Shown here one piece after another: positions 31,147-41,078 of a DNA stretch of 41,078 nt. The notes under the pieces were generated by a model, which had not been told where the DNA came from, made no database searches, and saw only the letters and a program-made list of their open reading frames with translations. Origin of the DNA: a virus. The stretch's first letter is position 1. The number at the start of each line of letters is the position of its first letter. The position numbers and the translations under genes are program-made. The stretch covers positions 1-41,078 of IMG/VR virus record IMGVR_UViG_3300014497_000005; one strand, written 5' to 3'.

Positions 31147-31318
31147 CTACTTTCTCCTTTTGTTTCTTCGCAGCATCCAATGAATCCATCATCCCAGAAG
31201 CTGTTACCTGCTGGATGAACCCGCGATTTTCTAGAATCTGAATGAGCGCACGCATGGTCGTTGTTAAGGTTTCAATCTGAGCCACGATCTTATTTAAGTT
31301 TGGTTTCCTTTGAGTCAT
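31139..31318 (-). CDS. 59-residue hypothetical helical protein
   Basis: ATG 31318 overlaps the TGA of the methyltransferase gene. The product (MTQRKPNLNKIVAQIETLTT, then TMRALIQILENRGFIQQV) is a single amphipathic, possibly coiled-coil protein with a Lys-rich end (DAAKKQKEKVDE). Its stop overlaps the ribosome site and start of the lipoprotein gene. Function unknown; the location before the terminase small subunit gene hints at a packaging-related or modification-related role. Confidence 0.55.
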   Translation of the reverse strand: MTQRKPNLNKIVAQIETLTTTMRALIQILENRGFIQQVTASGMMDSLDAAKKQKEKVDE

Positions 31319-32652
31319 CCTTCCATCCTCGCGTTTGCAATAGCCACATAGTCAGCTTCTTTTTCTATTCCGATGAATCTGAATCCCAGTTTTTTAGCAG
31401 CAACACCTGTTGATCCGCTTCCAGCGAATGGATCTAAGACTAGTCCACCAGGAGGAGTGATCAGACGGATGAGGTATTGCATGAGTTTGGTACTTTTGAC
31501 CGTTGGATGGACGTTGCCTTCACCTTTGTCAGATCGGGAAGCTTTAGCCACATAAAAGAAGCGGGAGGCTCCGCCTGAGTCTCCGTAATTCATTAAAGCT
31601 TTGGATCTATCAGGGCTTCCAGTAGCGATATGGCCTGTCGTTTTTCTTGGAGTGCCACCTATAGTGACTTTGCCTAACCCTTGTTTGATCCCACTCTGCT
31701 CATCCAGCATTGCGACGCTACAGCCAGGGGTGCACTCCCAAGCTGCTACGGTTTCCGTGCCGTCTCCGTTACCGTGAGATAGCTCATGACTGCCGATACC
31801 AAACATAGATTTATCAGGAGTTGTATTCCCGGAGCACTTACCGCTTCCATTCAGCTTCACCTTCTTAGTCCCCACCTCCACGCAATCGGGATTGTGGGAT
31901 AGGACTAGGTTGGCGGGGAAGCGGCCTTGGGGATGGGATTCAGCGCTACGCTCAATGTCCATTCCCCCGCCATGTATTTTACTTCCGCCTGTTCTTTCAT
32001 AAGAATATTTATCGGTAGTCCCAATGCGACTTTGATCAATATTCAACCCACCCACACCCCACTTCAGCACATTCGCGGCAACGGTCTTCTCGCTCAGCGG
32101 CTTGCGGATTAACCACCAGAATTCCGCGCTCGGCTTAAGCGCAGTTCCCCAGCCTTGCCATTGTTTGGCTTCGGGGGTTGCTGCTCCTCTTTTAAATTCC
32201 GGTCGCATCGGTGTTGGCCAGCTGGCATCATGGTCTAACTGTCGTTCCCTATAAGCTGGATTTTTCCCAATAATTTCCCCTTCCACTCCTGCCGCCTTAT
32301 CAATCGCCTTGCTGATATCCAGTGACTTAGGAAACCCACTCCCAAACAAATGTGTGACGACATCCCTTATCTCAAACCCAGCCTCCTCACAAGCCGTCGC
32401 AGTCCAGTGAGACGTGCGAGGAATTGCCCATACCAACCCATGAGCACCGGGCTTCAACACGCGTAAACACTCCCTCATGACTTCACTCATCCAGGAGATC
32501 CATTGCTTAGATCCGCCCTTGTCTGAGTCCCAGGATTTATTCATAAACGAAATTCCAGCTGGCGGATCCGTGATCAAGGAATCAACCGAATCAGATTCCA
32601 TCTCTCGAAGCTGTTCTAGACAGTCTGCGTGGAGGATTAAAGACGTGCTCAT
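31315..32652 (-). CDS. DNA methyltransferase (amino-MTase) with DPPA motif
   Basis: A 445-residue enzyme. The catalytic motif IV is TDPPAGISF near residue 28, with Ala in place of the usual Tyr/Trp/Phe. The SAM-binding motif I is DPFAGSGSTGVAA near residue 405, so the order is the beta type (IV before I). Between them lies a long target-recognition region with HLFGSGFPKSLDISKAIDKAAG and several His/Cys. Phages use such enzymes to protect DNA from host restriction or to mark packaging or regulation sites. No cognate restriction nuclease is present. It abuts the ParB-methylase gene. Confidence 0.82.
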   Translation of the reverse strand: MSTSLILHADCLEQLREMESDSVDSLITDPPAGISFMNKSWDSDKGGSKQWISWMSEVMRECLRVLKPGAHGLVWAIPRTSHWTATACEEAGFEIRDVVTHLFGSGFPKSLDISKAIDKAAGVEGEIIGKNPAYRERQLDHDASWPTPMRPEFKRGAATPEAKQWQGWGTALKPSAEFWWLIRKPLSEKTVAANVLKWGVGGLNIDQSRIGTTDKYSYERTGGSKIHGGGMDIERSAESHPQGRFPANLVLSHNPDCVEVGTKKVKLNGSGKCSGNTTPDKSMFGIGSHELSHGNGDGTETVAAWECTPGCSVAMLDEQSGIKQGLGKVTIGGTPRKTTGHIATGSPDRSKALMNYGDSGGASRFFYVAKASRSDKGEGNVHPTVKSTKLMQYLIRLITPPGGLVLDPFAGSGSTGVAAKKLGFRFIGIEKEADYVAIANARMEG

Positions 32653-33819
32653 TTATCCGCTCGCCTCCTGCTCACCCCGCGTATTCACGCCGTCCCTGGC
32701 CGCGGGATTTAAGAGCTGCGCTTTCTTACCTGTGAACTTCTCCCACCTGGCTATTATGACATCTACGTAGTGCGGATCTATCTCCATCATGAAACATCTG
32801 CGGTTGGTTTTTTCGCAGGCGATGAGAGTGGAGCCTGAGCCGCCGAAAGGTTCAAACAAAAGAGCCCTTGGCGGTGCCCATGACTCAATGACATCCTCAA
32901 CTAAACCTAAAAGCTTAGGGCAAGGGTGATCTCCAACGTCTGATTGCTGCTTTACTGCGTATTCAAATAGGTCTGTATTCCTTTTTTGATTAACTCCATA
33001 ACAAAGGAGAATTTCAAAAACGTTTAGATGTGCAATTGAAGCAGGACTCATCGCGTTTTTCTTCACCCAACAAGCCATCTTAAAATCGGCAAAACTAAAC
33101 CATAGACCAACGTTGTTGTTTCCAGGTGTCAGCACTATTGGACAATTCATAGTAGAGAGCGTCTGCCAAATTTCACGCATGAAATCAGCGTACTTTTCTC
33201 CACCTTTATCCTGATGTGAGCTATATTTAAATCCAACACCATACGGCGGATCAGTAAACACCATGTCCGCCTTCTCGCCATTCATCAGAAGTTCAACATC
33301 AGTGATAGAAGTAGAATCCCCACACATAAGGCGATGATTACCCAAAACATATAAATCTCCGGGCCTCGATATCGATTCCACGGAAACATTTGGAACCTCA
33401 TCCTCATCACATTGCGCCTCAAACTTCTCGGCAGGCTCTAGTACAAAATCCTCAATGCCCAACAGGTCAATGTCCAAATCAGGGCCAAGGTTAGCAATAT
33501 CGGAATTAATCCCAGAAAGATCCAACTCAGCCCAAGCGCCAATAGCGTTATCTGAAACACCGAACATGTACTCGGATTCATCGGATTCGAAATCTTGGTA
33601 AATGACTGGTACATCTTTCATCCCTAGTTTTTTGGCGGCTAATAACCTGCCGTGCCCGGCGGCAATATAACCGGATTGATTTGAAACAATAATTGGCACT
33701 CGAAAACCTTGAAATTCAATCAATCTGCAAAGCCTATCTATTTGCTCTTGACCGTGGTGGTTACGATTGCGGGGGTTGTTTTTTAGTTTATTTACATTAA
33801 CCCAAACGATGTCTTTCAA
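32653..33819 (-). CDS. ParB-like domain fused to a DNA methyltransferase
   Basis: A 388-residue protein in two parts. Residues 1-120 form a ParB/Srx-like domain with NPRNRNHHGQEQIDRLCRLIEFQGF and GHGRLLAAKKLG (residues 55-66). Residues 150-380 form an amino-methyltransferase with motif IV TDPPYGVGF (189-197) and motif I FEPFGGSGSTLIA (322-334). This fusion is well known in phages. Methylation of adenine or cytosine may block host restriction; the ParB-like part may be a CTP- or DNA-binding module. It overlaps the HNH gene by 23 bases. Confidence 0.87.
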   Translation of the reverse strand: MKDIVWVNVNKLKNNPRNRNHHGQEQIDRLCRLIEFQGFRVPIIVSNQSGYIAAGHGRLLAAKKLGMKDVPVIYQDFESDESEYMFGVSDNAIGAWAELDLSGINSDIANLGPDLDIDLLGIEDFVLEPAEKFEAQCDEDEVPNVSVESISRPGDLYVLGNHRLMCGDSTSITDVELLMNGEKADMVFTDPPYGVGFKYSSHQDKGGEKYADFMREIWQTLSTMNCPIVLTPGNNNVGLWFSFADFKMACWVKKNAMSPASIAHLNVFEILLCYGVNQKRNTDLFEYAVKQQSDVGDHPCPKLLGLVEDVIESWAPPRALLFEPFGGSGSTLIACEKTNRRCFMMEIDPHYVDVIIARWEKFTGKKAQLLNPAARDGVNTRGEQEASG

Positions 33820-34324
33820 GGTGTCTCCTCACAGTGTTAAGCGATAGTTCTAAAATTTCTCCAATTTGTTGTTGAGTAAATCCAGATTTCCACAATCGAA
33901 TCATTATCCTGACGTCTTTTTCTGAAGCTTTTGCATTCGGAGAATTGAATCCTGAAATTCCAAACTTAACCCCAAGCTCATCTCTCGCATGAATTATGTT
34001 CTCACGCTGAGTAACCCATTCTAAGTTTGAAACTCGGTTATCCCTTTTGACGCCATTTTTATGATTCACTTTCGGCTTATTATTTGGATTGGGAATCCAT
34101 GCCTCAGCAATAATTCTATGAGCTAAATAACTAGACCGCTTAACTGATAATTCTAAGTACCCATCTTTTCTGTTTCTTAAACTAAAGCACTTTCTGGGTT
34201 TCCCTGTTTTCGCGCTATATATTTCGCCCTCACGATGACACCATACTCCTAAACTTGGGTGCTTTTTGAAGTCTGGATTAAATTTAAATTCCTCTTCTTT
34301 TATGTAATTCACTATCCGGTTCAT
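33797..34324 (-). CDS. HNH homing-type endonuclease
   Basis: A 175-residue protein from ATG 34324 with AGAGGAAA upstream. After an NUMOD4-like N-terminal region (SLGVWCHREGEIYSAKTGKPRKC), the HNH domain contains AHRIIAEAWIPNPNNKPKVNHKNGVKRDNRVSNLEWVT, with the His, Asn-His-Lys-Asn and Asn residues of the metal-binding core. The C-terminus holds a helix-turn-helix (TQQQIGEILELSLNTVRRHLERH), likely the DNA-recognition part. Free-standing HNH enzymes in phages are often mobile or help packaging. Confidence 0.85.
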   Translation of the reverse strand: MNRIVNYIKEEEFKFNPDFKKHPSLGVWCHREGEIYSAKTGKPRKCFSLRNRKDGYLELSVKRSSYLAHRIIAEAWIPNPNNKPKVNHKNGVKRDNRVSNLEWVTQRENIIHARDELGVKFGISGFNSPNAKASEKDVRIMIRLWKSGFTQQQIGEILELSLNTVRRHLERHRLG

Positions 34325-34457
34325 TGATGTTTTCCTCTGGATGTTTCTCTTCGATAATCTGCTTGTCTGAGTTATTCGCTTCACGGTCCGATGTCCCGAT
34401 AATCGCGACGACTATGAAGAACAGGAATATAATTAGTAACCAAAGATCTGCACTCAT
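34284..34457 (-). CDS. 57-residue single-TM protein
   Basis: From ATG 34457 the product is MSADLWLLIIFLFFIVVAII (one strong membrane helix, residues 5-21), followed by a polar acidic tail (GTSDREANNSDKQIIEE). It fills the gap between the HNH and zinc-ribbon genes and overlaps the HNH start by 41 bases, its last codons giving the AGAGGAAA ribosome site of the HNH gene. The ribosome site of this gene itself is weak. Function unknown. Confidence 0.5.
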   Translation of the reverse strand: MSADLWLLIIFLFFIVVAIIGTSDREANNSDKQIIEEKHPEENINEPDSELHKRRGI

Positions 34458-36019: not shown

Positions 36020-36858
36020 TATCGCATCTCCAGGTAGCGGCCTTGCATGAATCCAAACCAGATAGGTTTGCCGACGTAGGTACCGCGCTTCCTAATTTTC
36101 CGAAACACAAGCTCACGATCCGTGGATTGGTACCTGCCCGATTCGATATCTTTGCTCTTAGGACGATTGAACAGGCAGACGTTGGCCGCTTCTTGGACAG
36201 CAGTGGAGCTGCCTTTGATGTCAAACTCACTCTCAACCCTGCCGTCCAAGGTCTTCCTAGGATGAACGACTAGGATGATATGCATCGGAAGCTTCTTAGC
36301 CAGGATCACAAACTCATGAATCGCGTTATCCATCTCGGCCTTCTCAAGCTGGGAGGAGACCACTTTGAGAAAGAAATTGAGATTATCCAAGATCGCAACC
36401 TTGCAGCCATACTCCTGCCACATGTATTTCAGGGTGTTGATCATCTCTTCGATCTCAACGCGGTTGTCATGGGTGGAGATCAAGATTGTTTTCTCAAATA
36501 GAGACTGGTTCTTTTCAGTTAGTTTTTTGATCTCATGATCAGCGAAGGAGTCGCCGGTGTTGAGATCCCTTTTCTCCAAAGCGGAGACCACCCGGACCAC
36601 GAAATCCACGTTCCCAGTTTCGACCGGGGCAACGAAGTGGTTTACGTCCATCCCTGCCAGCTGGGCCGAGAGATTTGCCAAAAACTGGGTCTTACCGGCA
36701 CCTGTCGGAGCGCAGAGCAGGGTTAACTCGTTAGGTCTTAGTCCTCCCACGAATTCAGTAAATCTAGGCCACCAAGGGAGAGGTACCCCTCTCGGAGGAG
36801 TGATTAGGTCCTTCGTCGCCATAGGCCATACTTCGGCGATAGTTCGGAAATTCAGCAT
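36019..36858 (-). CDS. DnaB-like replicative helicase / RecA-fold ATPase
   Basis: A 279-residue protein corresponding to the C-terminal motor domain only of DnaB-type helicases. Walker A is APTGAGKT (residues 50-57) preceded by the FVGGLRPNELTLLC strand typical of DnaB; Walker B is VAILDNLNFF with Asp158; then IILVVHP (194-200) and IKGSSTAVQEAANVCLFNRP follow, as in the DnaB sensor region. Lacking the N-terminal domain, it may act as a stand-alone hexameric helicase or need the host enzyme. It overlaps the initiator gene and is placed with it like lambda O-P or DnaC/helicase pairs. Confidence 0.8.
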   Translation of the reverse strand: MLNFRTIAEVWPMATKDLITPPRGVPLPWWPRFTEFVGGLRPNELTLLCAPTGAGKTQFLANLSAQLAGMDVNHFVAPVETGNVDFVVRVVSALEKRDLNTGDSFADHEIKKLTEKNQSLFEKTILISTHDNRVEIEEMINTLKYMWQEYGCKVAILDNLNFFLKVVSSQLEKAEMDNAIHEFVILAKKLPMHIILVVHPRKTLDGRVESEFDIKGSSTAVQEAANVCLFNRPKSKDIESGRYQSTDRELVFRKIRKRGTYVGKPIWFGFMQGRYLEMR

Positions 36859-37622
36859 AGGACCTCCCCCTCTACCTCGTGGAATTGACGCACCCTGGGT
36901 TGGTTCTGGGCTCCAAGATTGACGAAGGTCTCGAAGATGTCCGACTTGAAGAGTCTGAGGATACTGACGTGCTTGCTAGGATCGTAGGTAGGAGATCCTT
37001 CCTCGTATCTGGCACCGAGGAGGGCTAGCTTAGTCTTCTCGCATCCATTCCGGATGATGAGACTGGCTATGCTTGATTCGTCGAATCTAGGGTCTTTCTG
37101 GATTTTGTGGTGAGAGAGAGTTTTTCCCCATTCCTCGATGCATTGCTTTATTTCTTCTGGTAAGATCCTCGGAGTCTCTCTCTCTTCTTTTTTCTTATAT
37201 TCTTCTTTCTTATATTCTTTACTAAAGTGCAGTTCGTGTGCAGCTTGCGTGCAGTTTTCGTGCAGTTCGCGTTCAGTGTTTTCGTCTTGAGCCTGGTAAA
37301 CGCCCCACTGTAGCACCGAGACGAGCGTTCCCCGTGTGCAGCTTTCGACAGAAATTCGTCCGGTCTCTTCCAGGTACTTTAACCACCGTTTTATTGTGTT
37401 CTTTGAGCACCCCCACTTGTTCGCAAGCTCCCCTAAACCCATGACGACGGTGCCCGGTAGGATCTCTCTTTGCTTACCTTTCCAGAGAATCTTAGTCGGC
37501 TTCCATATGGCTGACAGGAGGAGCCAATTCCAAATCCCCCATAACCAAACGTTGTCTGGCAGGTCTTCGTCCAGGGAATCTCTCCATGCTTTGACCCAGC
37601 CTTTTGTAAATCTCTTTGTCAC
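36852..37622 (-). CDS. Replication initiator (winged-helix) carrying the origin
   Basis: A 256-residue protein from GTG 37622 (GGGGGATAAG upstream). Residues 50-125 form a winged helix: LPGTVVMGLGELANKWGCSKNTIKRWLKYLEETGRISVES, as in phage O-type/DnaD-like initiators. A highly charged linker (residues 117-150) is encoded by DNA that contains the 11-bp iterons and the AT-rich repeats. The C-terminal part (PEEIKQCIEEWGKTL...) is helical and resembles the domain that binds the helicase. The pair with the RecA-fold helicase defines the replication module. Confidence 0.8.
   Translation of the reverse strand: MTKRFTKGWVKAWRDSLDEDLPDNVWLWGIWNWLLLSAIWKPTKILWKGKQREILPGTVVMGLGELANKWGCSKNTIKRWLKYLEETGRISVESCTRGTLVSVLQWGVYQAQDENTERELHENCTQAAHELHFSKEYKKEEYKKKEERETPRILPEEIKQCIEEWGKTLSHHKIQKDPRFDESSIASLIIRNGCEKTKLALLGARYEEGSPTYDPSKHVSILRLFKSDIFETFVNLGAQNQPRVRQFHEVEGEVLC
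37191..37281. other. Predicted replication origin: five 11-bp iterons and two AT-rich 15-bp repeats
   Basis: GTGCAG starts at 37227, 37238, 37249 and 37260, and the variant GTTCAG at 37271: five units with an exact 11-bp period, i.e. one face of the helix. Next to them TTTCTTATATTCTT occurs at 37191-37204 and 37206-37219, AT-rich tandem repeats like those opened first at lambda or oriC origins. The iterons lie inside the initiator gene, as in lambda O. Confidence 0.75.
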
Positions 37623-37796: not shown

Positions 37797-38139
37797 TGAG
37801 TTTGATTGATTAATGCCTAGTTTTAGATGCGAAGTGTAATTTTCGACTAATGTTGACTTTATGTTGACTTTTTAAATGAAGATTTCAAAAACACGCGAAA
37901 ACACGAGCTTTTTTTCGCCCTTAGCACGACTCAAAATCGTGTATCCTTACGGGTGTCCGAGTTCGACTCTCGGAGGAGCCACCATTAAAAACCTCAAAAA
38001 AACCCTGAAAAATCGCATAAAATCAAAGGCTTAGCCTAATGCAGGCAGTCGAAATAAATATTTTCAAACTGGGTTCTGTACGCTGAGTTTGATTGATTTT
38101 GATCATTTTTTGCCAAAATTGTTGACTTGGATGTTGACT
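37797..38139. other. attP: Predicted attP: tRNA-Leu 3' half flanked by paired arm sites
   Basis: Bases 37925-37984 match the 3' part of a tRNA-Leu: anticodon stem CACGA/TCGTG with loop CTCAAAA (anticodon CAA at 37932-37934), a class II variable arm, T stem CCGAG/CTCGG with loop TTCGACT, acceptor strand AGGAGCC, A and CCA. There is no 5' half, so it is a core shared with a host gene. TGTTGACT repeats flank it on both sides: 37851-37858 and 37862-37869, then 38120-38127 and 38132-38139, plus TGAGTTTGATTGATT at 37797-37811 and 38084-38098. The integrase gene follows directly. Confidence 0.85.
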
Positions 38140-38227: not shown

Positions 38228-39346
38228 TTAATCGACTGTTTGAATCAATTTTAGATGGGACCTTTTCTTAGTCAAACCAACTAGAGTTCCGATGTTGTCC
38301 AATCGTTCGGGAACTTCGTGATCATAGATGCGAGTGGTCGCATCGTCGCTATGATTGTAGAGTTCGCGCAGGTCGCTTCTATGGGCACCTGCTTCTTTCC
38401 ATAATCCCGACGTCGTGTGCCTCAATCCATGAGGAGTAAGGAGCGGGAAGTTATGCTTGGCACAAAGGGCCTTTAGAGCCTTCTGGATGGTATGGTACGA
38501 TGCCATCTCACCTGGTTGCTGACACCGTTGGACTACCCAGTCCGTTGGCCTCGCTAAGGGTGATAGCTTCCTTTGCAAGTACTCAGCAAGGTCAGAAGCA
38601 ATCGGAATAGGGGTTTCAGCTCGTTTATTTTTGACGGGAGAGATCTTCTTTCCTTTACGATTCCACTGTCTACGCAAAGTTAACTTCCTAGTTACCAAAT
38701 CAAGATCTCCATGTTGCAACCCAATCAACTCGCAGACTCGAAGGCCGGTACCAACCATGATCCAAATGGAGGGTCCCAACCAATGATCAGAAACTGTTTC
38801 TAAAAACTGGCGAGCTAAATCTGGCCCAAGATACGTTGGAACCTTCTTTTGTACAGTAGGTTTGAATTTCTTTATCACTGGATTGAAATCTCTAACTTCA
38901 GAGATATCGACTGCATATTCAAAAATCGAGTGAAGCAGAATATAGATATGCCGAACCATTCCTGGAGCCAAGCCTTTTACTTCCCTGAGTTCCGCAAGAA
39001 GTTTAGCAATATCCCTTTTTTGAATTTCCACCAAGACTGCTTTGCCAAGATAGGGTTCAATATGGTTCTTGAACATTCTATCCTGTTCTGAACGCCAGCC
39101 CTCATTTACCTTTGGTCGGCCCTGAATTTTCCAGGTTTGGTGGTAATACTCTGACAGAGTTACCCCTCGAAATTCAGTTTGAATCGCTGTTTGCCCCTTT
39201 GCCTTTTGAGCGAGCAAAGATCCTTCATAAACTTTTGCATCTTCTTTTCTGCTGAATTGCTTTGACGGATACCATCCGCCTTGTGGATCTCGTACTTGAA
39301 CAATATAAGCAAACCCGGACTTTAACTTTCTTCTAGTAACAGCCAT
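38228..39346 (-). CDS. int: Tyrosine recombinase (integrase)
   Basis: A 372-residue enzyme. An N-terminal AP2/arm-binding-like part (residues 1-60) and the SAM-like core-binding domain (60-165) precede the catalytic domain with R203 (GTGLRVCEL), K239-K241 region, H306 and R309 (HGLRH), H332 (NHS, usually GHS) and nucleophile Tyr341 (TTRIYDH). All key residues are present. It would catalyse integration at a host tRNA-Leu gene through the attP located just downstream, and excision with the HTH protein at 39387. GAGGG lies eight bases before ATG 39346. Confidence 0.95.
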   Translation of the reverse strand: MAVTRRKLKSGFAYIVQVRDPQGGWYPSKQFSRKEDAKVYEGSLLAQKAKGQTAIQTEFRGVTLSEYYHQTWKIQGRPKVNEGWRSEQDRMFKNHIEPYLGKAVLVEIQKRDIAKLLAELREVKGLAPGMVRHIYILLHSIFEYAVDISEVRDFNPVIKKFKPTVQKKVPTYLGPDLARQFLETVSDHWLGPSIWIMVGTGLRVCELIGLQHGDLDLVTRKLTLRRQWNRKGKKISPVKNKRAETPIPIASDLAEYLQRKLSPLARPTDWVVQRCQQPGEMASYHTIQKALKALCAKHNFPLLTPHGLRHTTSGLWKEAGAHRSDLRELYNHSDDATTRIYDHEVPERLDNIGTLVGLTKKRSHLKLIQTVD

Positions 39347-39386: not shown

Positions 39387-39620
39387 CTAAACGGTTCTTT
39401 CATTACTCCACTGCTCTAAGTCCTTAATCAAAAACATCGGTTTCCTGCCGTGATATCTGACTGGGAAATTCATTGACTTTTGCTTATGAATCCATGAATA
39501 CACAGTGGATTTTTTCACCTTGAGAAACAAAGCTGCTTCATCAGTATTCAGATAAGGACTCACCACATGTAATTCAATCTTTTTCTTCTTTCCCTTTGCC
39601 TTCTTCTTTTCTTCTGTCAT
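39387..39620 (-). CDS. xis: Excisionase-like winged-helix protein
   Basis: A 77-residue basic protein from ATG 39620, with GGGGGAG directly upstream. After a Lys-rich N-terminus (residues 1-16), an HTH_17/Xis-like domain reads VVSPYLNTDEAALFLKVKKSTVYSWIHKQKSMNFPVRYHGRKPMFLIKDLEQW, i.e. helix, recognition helix, wing with RKPMFL and C-terminal helix. Such proteins bend attachment-site DNA and direct excision. The position directly upstream of integrase agrees, though it could also act as a regulator. Confidence 0.75.
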   Translation of the reverse strand: MTEEKKKAKGKKKKIELHVVSPYLNTDEAALFLKVKKSTVYSWIHKQKSMNFPVRYHGRKPMFLIKDLEQWSNERTV

Positions 39621-39651
39621 CACTCCCCCTCGATGTTGTTTTTATTATTCG

Positions 39652-40777: not shown

Positions 40778-41078
40778 TTAAAACGGTAAATCATCATGAG
40801 GTGCAGTATCAGTTGGTGGTTTATGTGTGTTCGTGATTCCTGTTTGTTGACGTCTGAACTTGACATCACCTTTGAGATTTAATGCTCCTAACTTAATCCG
40901 AGCATCCTGAAACGATAGTTTATCGCGGAAAGCAGCGCCTCCAGGAATGTTGATCCACCTGATCTTAGACCTGACTTTCCCTTTATCGTCAGTCTCCTCC
41001 TCGATCGTAAGCTGAACATCGCGTTCCTCATCGAGGGCACAACCTTGGGGCCCGTTTGCCAAACTTTCGATTTCATCC
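40778..41078 (-). CDS. ssDNA-binding-like protein, C-terminal part (wraps to 1-344)
   Basis: This is the second piece of the gene described at 1-344; bases 40956-41078 duplicate 1-123. It encodes the part from ANGPQGCALDEERDVQLTIEEE through WINIPGGAAFRDKLSFQDARI to the terminal DDLPF, stop at 40778-40780. The frame agrees exactly with the 1-344 segment once the repeat is merged, confirming circularity. AAGGGGGTAGAT before ATG 344 is the true start signal. Confidence 0.8.
   Translation of the reverse strand, partial: DEIESLANGPQGCALDEERDVQLTIEEETDDKGKVRSKIRWINIPGGAAFRDKLSFQDARIKLGALNLKGDVKFRRQQTGITNTHKPPTDTAPHDDLPF

Follow-up and report, generated by a model that had tools for sequence, protein, structure and literature searches.

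The 41,078-bp phage record analysed here (IMG/VR IMGVR_UViG_3300014497_000005; 'the window' in what follows is this whole stretch) is best understood, with a probability of about 0.93, as a temperate tailed phage with its attP complete, which most likely has a Bdellovibrionota host and integrates at tRNA-Leu(CAA) by the scheme proposed below. An initial annotation had already predicted a full attP with core and arm-type sites, and that prediction is supported by features that can be read from the sequence directly: a tRNA half, its match to host genes at 60 of 61 bases, a set of phased repeats and a layout that is kept in relatives. Which protein binds which repeat, where exactly the crossover lies and which species is the host are points that we infer.

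Anatomy of the attachment site

The site and its flanking genes comprise the following features.

36852-37622, - strand: DnaD-like helicase loader, on the other side of attP (phrog_2514, E 1.7e-26)
37797-37811, + strand: 15-bp direct repeat TGAGTTTGATTGATT, copy 1, in the P arm and outside the arm pair; putative site for an accessory protein (RDF/Xis)
37851-37858, + strand: predicted arm-type site P1, TGTTGACT
37862-37869, + strand: predicted arm-type site P2, TGTTGACT, 11 bp from P1; an 11-bp pair is likewise found in the phage record L182 (see below)
37924-37984, + strand: 61-nt 3' half of tRNA-Leu(CAA), the predicted common core shared with host attB; one mismatch in 61 against genomes G001 and G003
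37930-37936, + strand: predicted strand-exchange (overlap) region, the loop CTCAAAA with inverted core-type sites CACGA/TCGTG, placed by comparison with relatives
38084-38098, + strand: TGAGTTTGATTGATT, copy 2, in the P' arm between core and arm pair
38120-38127, + strand: predicted arm-type site P'1, TGTTGACT
38132-38139, + strand: predicted arm-type site P'2, TGTTGACT, 12 bp from P'1; a 12-bp pair is likewise found in L182
38161-38200, - strand: inverted repeat and T-run, from its sequence the probable integrase terminator
38228-39346, - strand: tyrosine integrase, 372 aa (PF00589, E 2e-17; PF14659; phrog_1)
39387-39623, - strand: HTH_17 (excisionase-like) protein, 78 aa, candidate Xis/RDF (PF12728, E 5e-9, above the cut-off)

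The tRNA segment runs from the anticodon stem through the CCA end (37982-37984), and its loop is framed by the stem halves CACGA (37925-37929) and TCGTG (37937-37941). It had first been described as a 60-bp 3' half, without a 5' half, between the replication and integrase genes. Its length is in fact 61 nt, whilst its position and its character stand: ARAGORN calls no tRNA gene anywhere in the 41-kb window, so no 5' half is present, and the half lies between the loader and integrase genes.

The 8-mer TGTTGACT occurs exactly four times in the 41 kb, always on the + strand, and its reverse complement has no copy there. The arrangement is TGTTGACT-N3-TGTTGACT to the left of the tRNA half and TGTTGACT-N4-TGTTGACT to its right, which gives the pairs 11-12 bp apart on each side that had been noticed at the outset. 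From the left pair to the anticodon loop is 60 bp, from the loop to the other pair 183 bp, and from the last copy to the end of the integrase gene 88 bp. The 15-bp repeat is present in exactly two copies, each lying 5' of the TGTTGACT pair on the + strand. Its initial description as lying further out than the pairs is correct for the left copy only, since the right copy is inside the pair.

The number of TGTTGACT copies is in itself only mildly unusual (1.41 expected in 41 kb; four of 100 shuffles reach four). The arrangement of these copies is not due to chance: in none of 100 shuffles of the whole window did any 8-mer occur four times within 300 bp, and none of 1000 shuffles of the two arms put a 10-13-bp-spaced pair of one and the same 8-mer into each arm. 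A direct repeat of at least 15 bp arose in two of 2000 shuffles of the 504-bp region, and in one of 1000 when it had to fall between the arms.

The two ends of the window, positions 1-123 and 40956-41078, are an exact 123-bp direct repeat, which indicates that the record is circular or terminally redundant. The site is thus uncut, and is an attP rather than an attL, an attR or the end of a prophage.

In alignment the integrase has the invariant residues R203, K231, H306, R309, H332 and Y341, which we take to be the catalytic R, K, HxxR, H and Y of the enzyme. The HTH_17 gene adjoins the integrase gene and lies behind it as seen from attP; the protein also has a match to TIGR01764, below the cut-off. 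Between the core and the P' arm, positions 38021-38033 are the sole + strand match in the window to the IHF consensus, with two more matches on the - strand; this is weakly suggestive of an IHF site. Rfam gives sub-threshold matches only, around the terminator. Further along the genome, two adjoining N6/N4 DNA methylase genes (31315-33819, - strand), the second with a ParB N-terminal domain, are themselves adjoined by an HNH endonuclease gene (33797-34384).

Related integrases and their attachment sites

A second phage record, L182 (IMGVR_UViG_3300045974_000145), was picked by the similarity of its integrase, not by its repeats. Its integrase, the most similar one found, is 39-40% identical to that of the window (39% over residues 1-369 in an alignment-based scan). 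The initial annotation had expected the repeat motif to recur in relatives with a similar integrase, and L182 bears this out: it has TGTTAACT at 2077/2088 (11 bp) and 2335/2347 (12 bp), spacings identical to those of the window, and exactly four copies in its 31.9 kb. Between these pairs is the 3' half of a tRNA-Leu(GAG), starting at tRNA position 28. The loop is 61 bp from one pair and 171 bp from the other, against 60 and 183 bp in the window, and L182 has a 15-bp repeat too, TTGCAGTTGTTCTTA, whose copies lie at -123 and +102 relative to the half; the corresponding values in the window are -127 and +100. The two phages are therefore alike in their 11/12-bp arm pairs, in an HTH_17-like gene (45% identity over 51 aa), in a loader-like gene beyond attP and in a 15-bp repeat in both arms. 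They differ in the target tRNA, in the arm motif and in the letters of the 15-bp repeat, which occupies matching places in both arms with unrelated sequences. When viral_contigs was scanned for this geometry of four sites, L182 was the sole match, the window itself possibly having been left out. In L182 the second repeat, as TTGCAGTTGTT, is seen twice in each arm, spaced at 20 bp in one arm and at 10 bp in the other (oriented 2008, 2028, 2303, 2313).

Genome searches with the integrase and the tRNA covered one phylum, which we call the Bdellovibrionota after the record titles of the loci matched by the tRNA pattern (see below), and beyond it the integrase was compared with the phage collection. 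Matches at E 1e-20 or better were found in 16 of 368 phylum genomes (18 loci listed, best 38% identity); the best among 50,697 phage records was 27%. As a single query against viral_contigs, the integrase gave three stretches that fit the pattern, none of them a relative. In a tree of 19 integrases, from which four of the 18 Bdellovibrionota loci were omitted as incomplete or broken (L091, L118, L122, L123), the window joins the Bdellovibrionota rows (92/92) on a long branch and without resolution inside them, which lends weak support to the grouping. A 15.3-kb fragment with a related helicase (L082, 58%) has no integrase match.

ARAGORN finds an intact tRNA gene in 11 of the 18 loci (Ser six, Leu two, Arg two, Gly one). 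The related integrases are thus found at other tRNA genes as well as at tRNA-Leu, an outcome that the initial annotation had named as counting against its reading. Such changes of target are to be expected at 29-38% integrase identity and do not touch the reading of this attP. The search that it had suggested, for a tRNA-Leu(CAA) gene with a related integrase, has one success: at G344:C45 an intact tRNA-Leu(CAA) gene and the gene of an integrase with about 34% identity stand tail to tail, just as in the window. The 3' end of the tRNA is 67 bp from the integrase stop codon, and the integrase end has a pair of TTTGGGAACAT copies spaced by 11 bp. Of 28 phylum loci at which ARAGORN found tRNA-Leu(CAA), several of them with short flanks, this one alone has a related integrase beside it. 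Two decayed or compound loci were also seen. At L114 (G355:C95), an integrase frame without the C-terminal tyrosine region in the alignment marks a decayed element at tRNA-Leu(GAG). At L087 (G004:C84), an integrase lies 3' of a single tRNA-Ser(CGA), and towards the 5' side of that tRNA is what seems to be the C-terminal end of another integrase, which has a 12-bp-spaced repeat of its own.

Where the far end of an element could be recognised, it carries a duplicate of part of the tRNA gene. In G332 and G351 this is a 58-bp duplicate of the 3' half from position 33, the first base of the loop; in G244 the 3' duplicate begins at position 31, and in G355 a broken duplicate begins at position 33. 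In G278 the duplicate is instead the 5' part of the tRNA, positions 1-42, and G201 has a similar 1-42 stretch. Such 5'-half duplications beside related integrases (L164, 8391-8432; L168, 14334-14375) represent the rarer 5'-fragment mode. The other regions of relatives that were examined gave no duplicate, and the elements with both ends known are thus a minority.

The paired repeats recur with other letters. G332 (GGCGGAA) and G355 (GGGAACA) each have one motif that is paired at 11 bp on each side, a result reached by none of 1000 shuffles in either case, whilst G351 and G244 failed the exact both-sides test (equalled by 110 and 907, respectively, of 1000 shuffles). Near the integrase stop codon, a pair of at least 7-mers at 10-13 bp is found in 12 of the 18 relatives, compared with 12.5% of 3,948 background segments, and in six no 7-mer pair is found there; three of the 12 (L114, L087, L116) have their best-scoring pair elsewhere than in the expected P' position, and two of the 18 relatives (L109, L122) have short segments. 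Thus, in more distant relatives the paired layout is kept and the motifs differ, and the rule of the family appears from these sequences to be the paired spacing rather than the letters.

The host tRNA gene

A strict tRNA pattern had no match in genome_contigs, because the phage half has one altered T-loop base. A looser pattern, run over the same 84,980 species, found four loci, each in a record with Oligoflexia or Bdellovibrionales in its title. At three of them the tRNA-Leu(CAA) gene is intact. Within the phylum, 36 of 368 genomes match the half at E 1e-8 or better, and two of these, G001 and G003, have intact tRNA-Leu(CAA) genes that equal the phage half at 60 of 61 bases. In viral_contigs, neither the exact nor the looser pattern of the tRNA 3' end had a match, and against phages and plasmids the half gave short partial matches only.

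The fourth locus, L086 (5654-5704, - strand, in G004:C90, a Bdellovibrionales MAG), is a 3' half that lacks its 5' counterpart; after it comes a pair of TTTGGGAAAC copies spaced by about 12 bp. From its sequence it seems to be the end of another element, which would have used the same tRNA-Leu(CAA) gene.

The prediction that insertion would restore the host gene holds in silico, where a hybrid of the 5' part of the G001 gene (L083) and the phage half is read by ARAGORN as tRNA-Leu(caa).

The tRNA core and the TerL relatives, which are 51-62% identical within the phylum, about as close as the best in viral_contigs (51%), make a Bdellovibrionota bacterium the most likely host, probably a relative of Bdellovibrio, whose members are predatory. 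Searches with the portal protein (none of 368 phylum genomes, an uninformative empty result) and with the major head protein (none of eight) gave no host. No prophage of this phage was found in the phylum genomes searched, and the nearest integrases found anywhere are 33-40% identical.

Proposed recombination scheme and its alternatives

By analogy with lambda-type integrases, the enzyme would bridge the arm pairs and the core, its N-terminal domain binding the TGTTGACT pairs and its catalytic part the inverted CACGA/TCGTG core. Strand exchange would take place across CTCAAAA, the anticodon loop of the tRNA-Leu(CAA) gene in the host, so that the gene would be restored from the host 5' half and the phage 3' half, with the P' arm and int coming after it. 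The host's own 3' half would be displaced to the opposite end of the prophage, behind the P arm. Excision is probably directed by the adjacent HTH_17 protein, perhaps through the 15-bp repeats. RDF sites are described as direct repeats one helix turn apart (PMC7498355). The 15-bp repeats of the window and of L182, fixed in place but variable in letters, and with additional copies in L182 at distances of 20 and 10 bp, fit an excisionase or a similar accessory protein.

The attP may be real and these two roles swapped, with the 15-bp repeats as integrase arm sites and the TGTTGACT pairs bound by the excisionase. Both classes of repeat lie in both arms, here and in L182, and a spacing of one helix turn (PMC7498355) would also suit pairs at 11-12 bp. 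This arrangement is nevertheless rather unlikely. Pairs near the integrase stop codon are found in most of the relatives, and once the pair motif is masked no shared repeat of at least 10 bp is left in G332, G351 or G355. Between the two phages whose integrases are similar, the pair motif also hardly changes (TGTTGACT and TGTTAACT), whereas their 15-bp repeats are unrelated. Finally, paired direct-repeat arm sites on both sides are described for the cluster J mycobacteriophages (PMC3706429). Binding of the pairs by the integrase is thus the preferred assignment.

The position of the crossover is not readable from this attP alone, because identity spans the whole 3' half. Exchange further 3', in the T-loop or at the junction of T and acceptor stems, would agree with the many such islands counted by Islander (PMC4383910), but is improbable here. 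The duplications of relatives begin at positions 28-33 (28 in L182) or end at 42, and exchange in or next to the anticodon loop (33-42) alone fits both types; CACGA-CTCAAAA-TCGTG is moreover an inverted repeat centred on the loop. The duplications of relatives thus support a crossover in the anticodon loop.

A phage tRNA gene, captured or decayed and with no part in integration, is a very improbable source of the half. Phages often carry tRNA genes, and none is intact here; however, this half starts at the anticodon stem, has 60 of 61 host bases and stands by an integrase between matched repeat pairs, and L182 has the same layout with another leucine tRNA. Least probable of all, to the point of being negligible, is tRNA-dependent lysogeny, in which integration breaks the tRNA gene and the phage supplies a replacement: a tyrosine integrase at a host tRNA gene is a feature of both modes, but that mode is described as having a core some 10 bp long, together with an isotype-matched tRNA on the phage (PMC10865867), whilst the window has a core of about 61 bp and no phage tRNA gene.

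The proposed site has close parallels. In cluster J mycobacteriophages (Omega, BAKA and others), attP lies 3' of a tyrosine integrase gene, a 44-bp common core overlaps a tRNA-Leu gene and begins, on the left, in the anticodon loop, direct-repeat pairs of arm-type sites flank it on each side, and a helix-turn-helix gene upstream of int is the candidate RDF (PMC3706429). The likeness is one of attP layout. The host phylum is different, as is the arm motif (TGCATAC... rather than TGTTGACT), and the parts of that account used here mention no second, 15-bp class of repeat (PMC3706429). Among 3919 islands, Islander counted 2083 centred on the anticodon, 3760 with a 3' fragment and 159 with a 5' fragment (PMC4383910), and both fragment types occur among the relatives found here. 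These islands share with the window an element-borne 3' tDNA fragment, a tyrosine integrase and a regenerated gene; they are integrated, whereas the window has a free attP in a phage genome (PMC4383910). Given the cluster J plan and the anticodon-centred islands, this kind of site is already known. Attachment sites at tRNA genes are indeed well known, and the present one is an unusually clear example; it adds the phylum of the host, the motif, a tight geometry found also in L182 and the second class of repeat. The titles and abstract openings of the papers found on Bdellovibrio prophages and temperate phages name no mapped tRNA attP in Bdellovibrionota, which is no proof of absence, and the Bdellovibrio phages reported in one account (phi1422 and two others) are described there as lytic or of unknown lifestyle (PMC3391216).

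The window thus provides a well-anatomised attP for a phage whose tRNA core ties it to Bdellovibrionota. The int-attP cassette, provided that the integrase is functional, could serve as an integration vector for laboratory strains with a matching tRNA-Leu(CAA). The role of the second repeat class is made directly testable by the present attP. We suggest tentatively, with more doubt than confidence, that phages of Bdellovibrionota may have in common a fixed attP geometry in which each arm has two layers of sites: integrase pairs conserved in sequence and spacing, and 15-bp repeats that keep their place in both arms whilst their letters change between phages, presumably along with the excisionase. 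If this is true, directionality would be controlled on both arms through a swappable class of sites.
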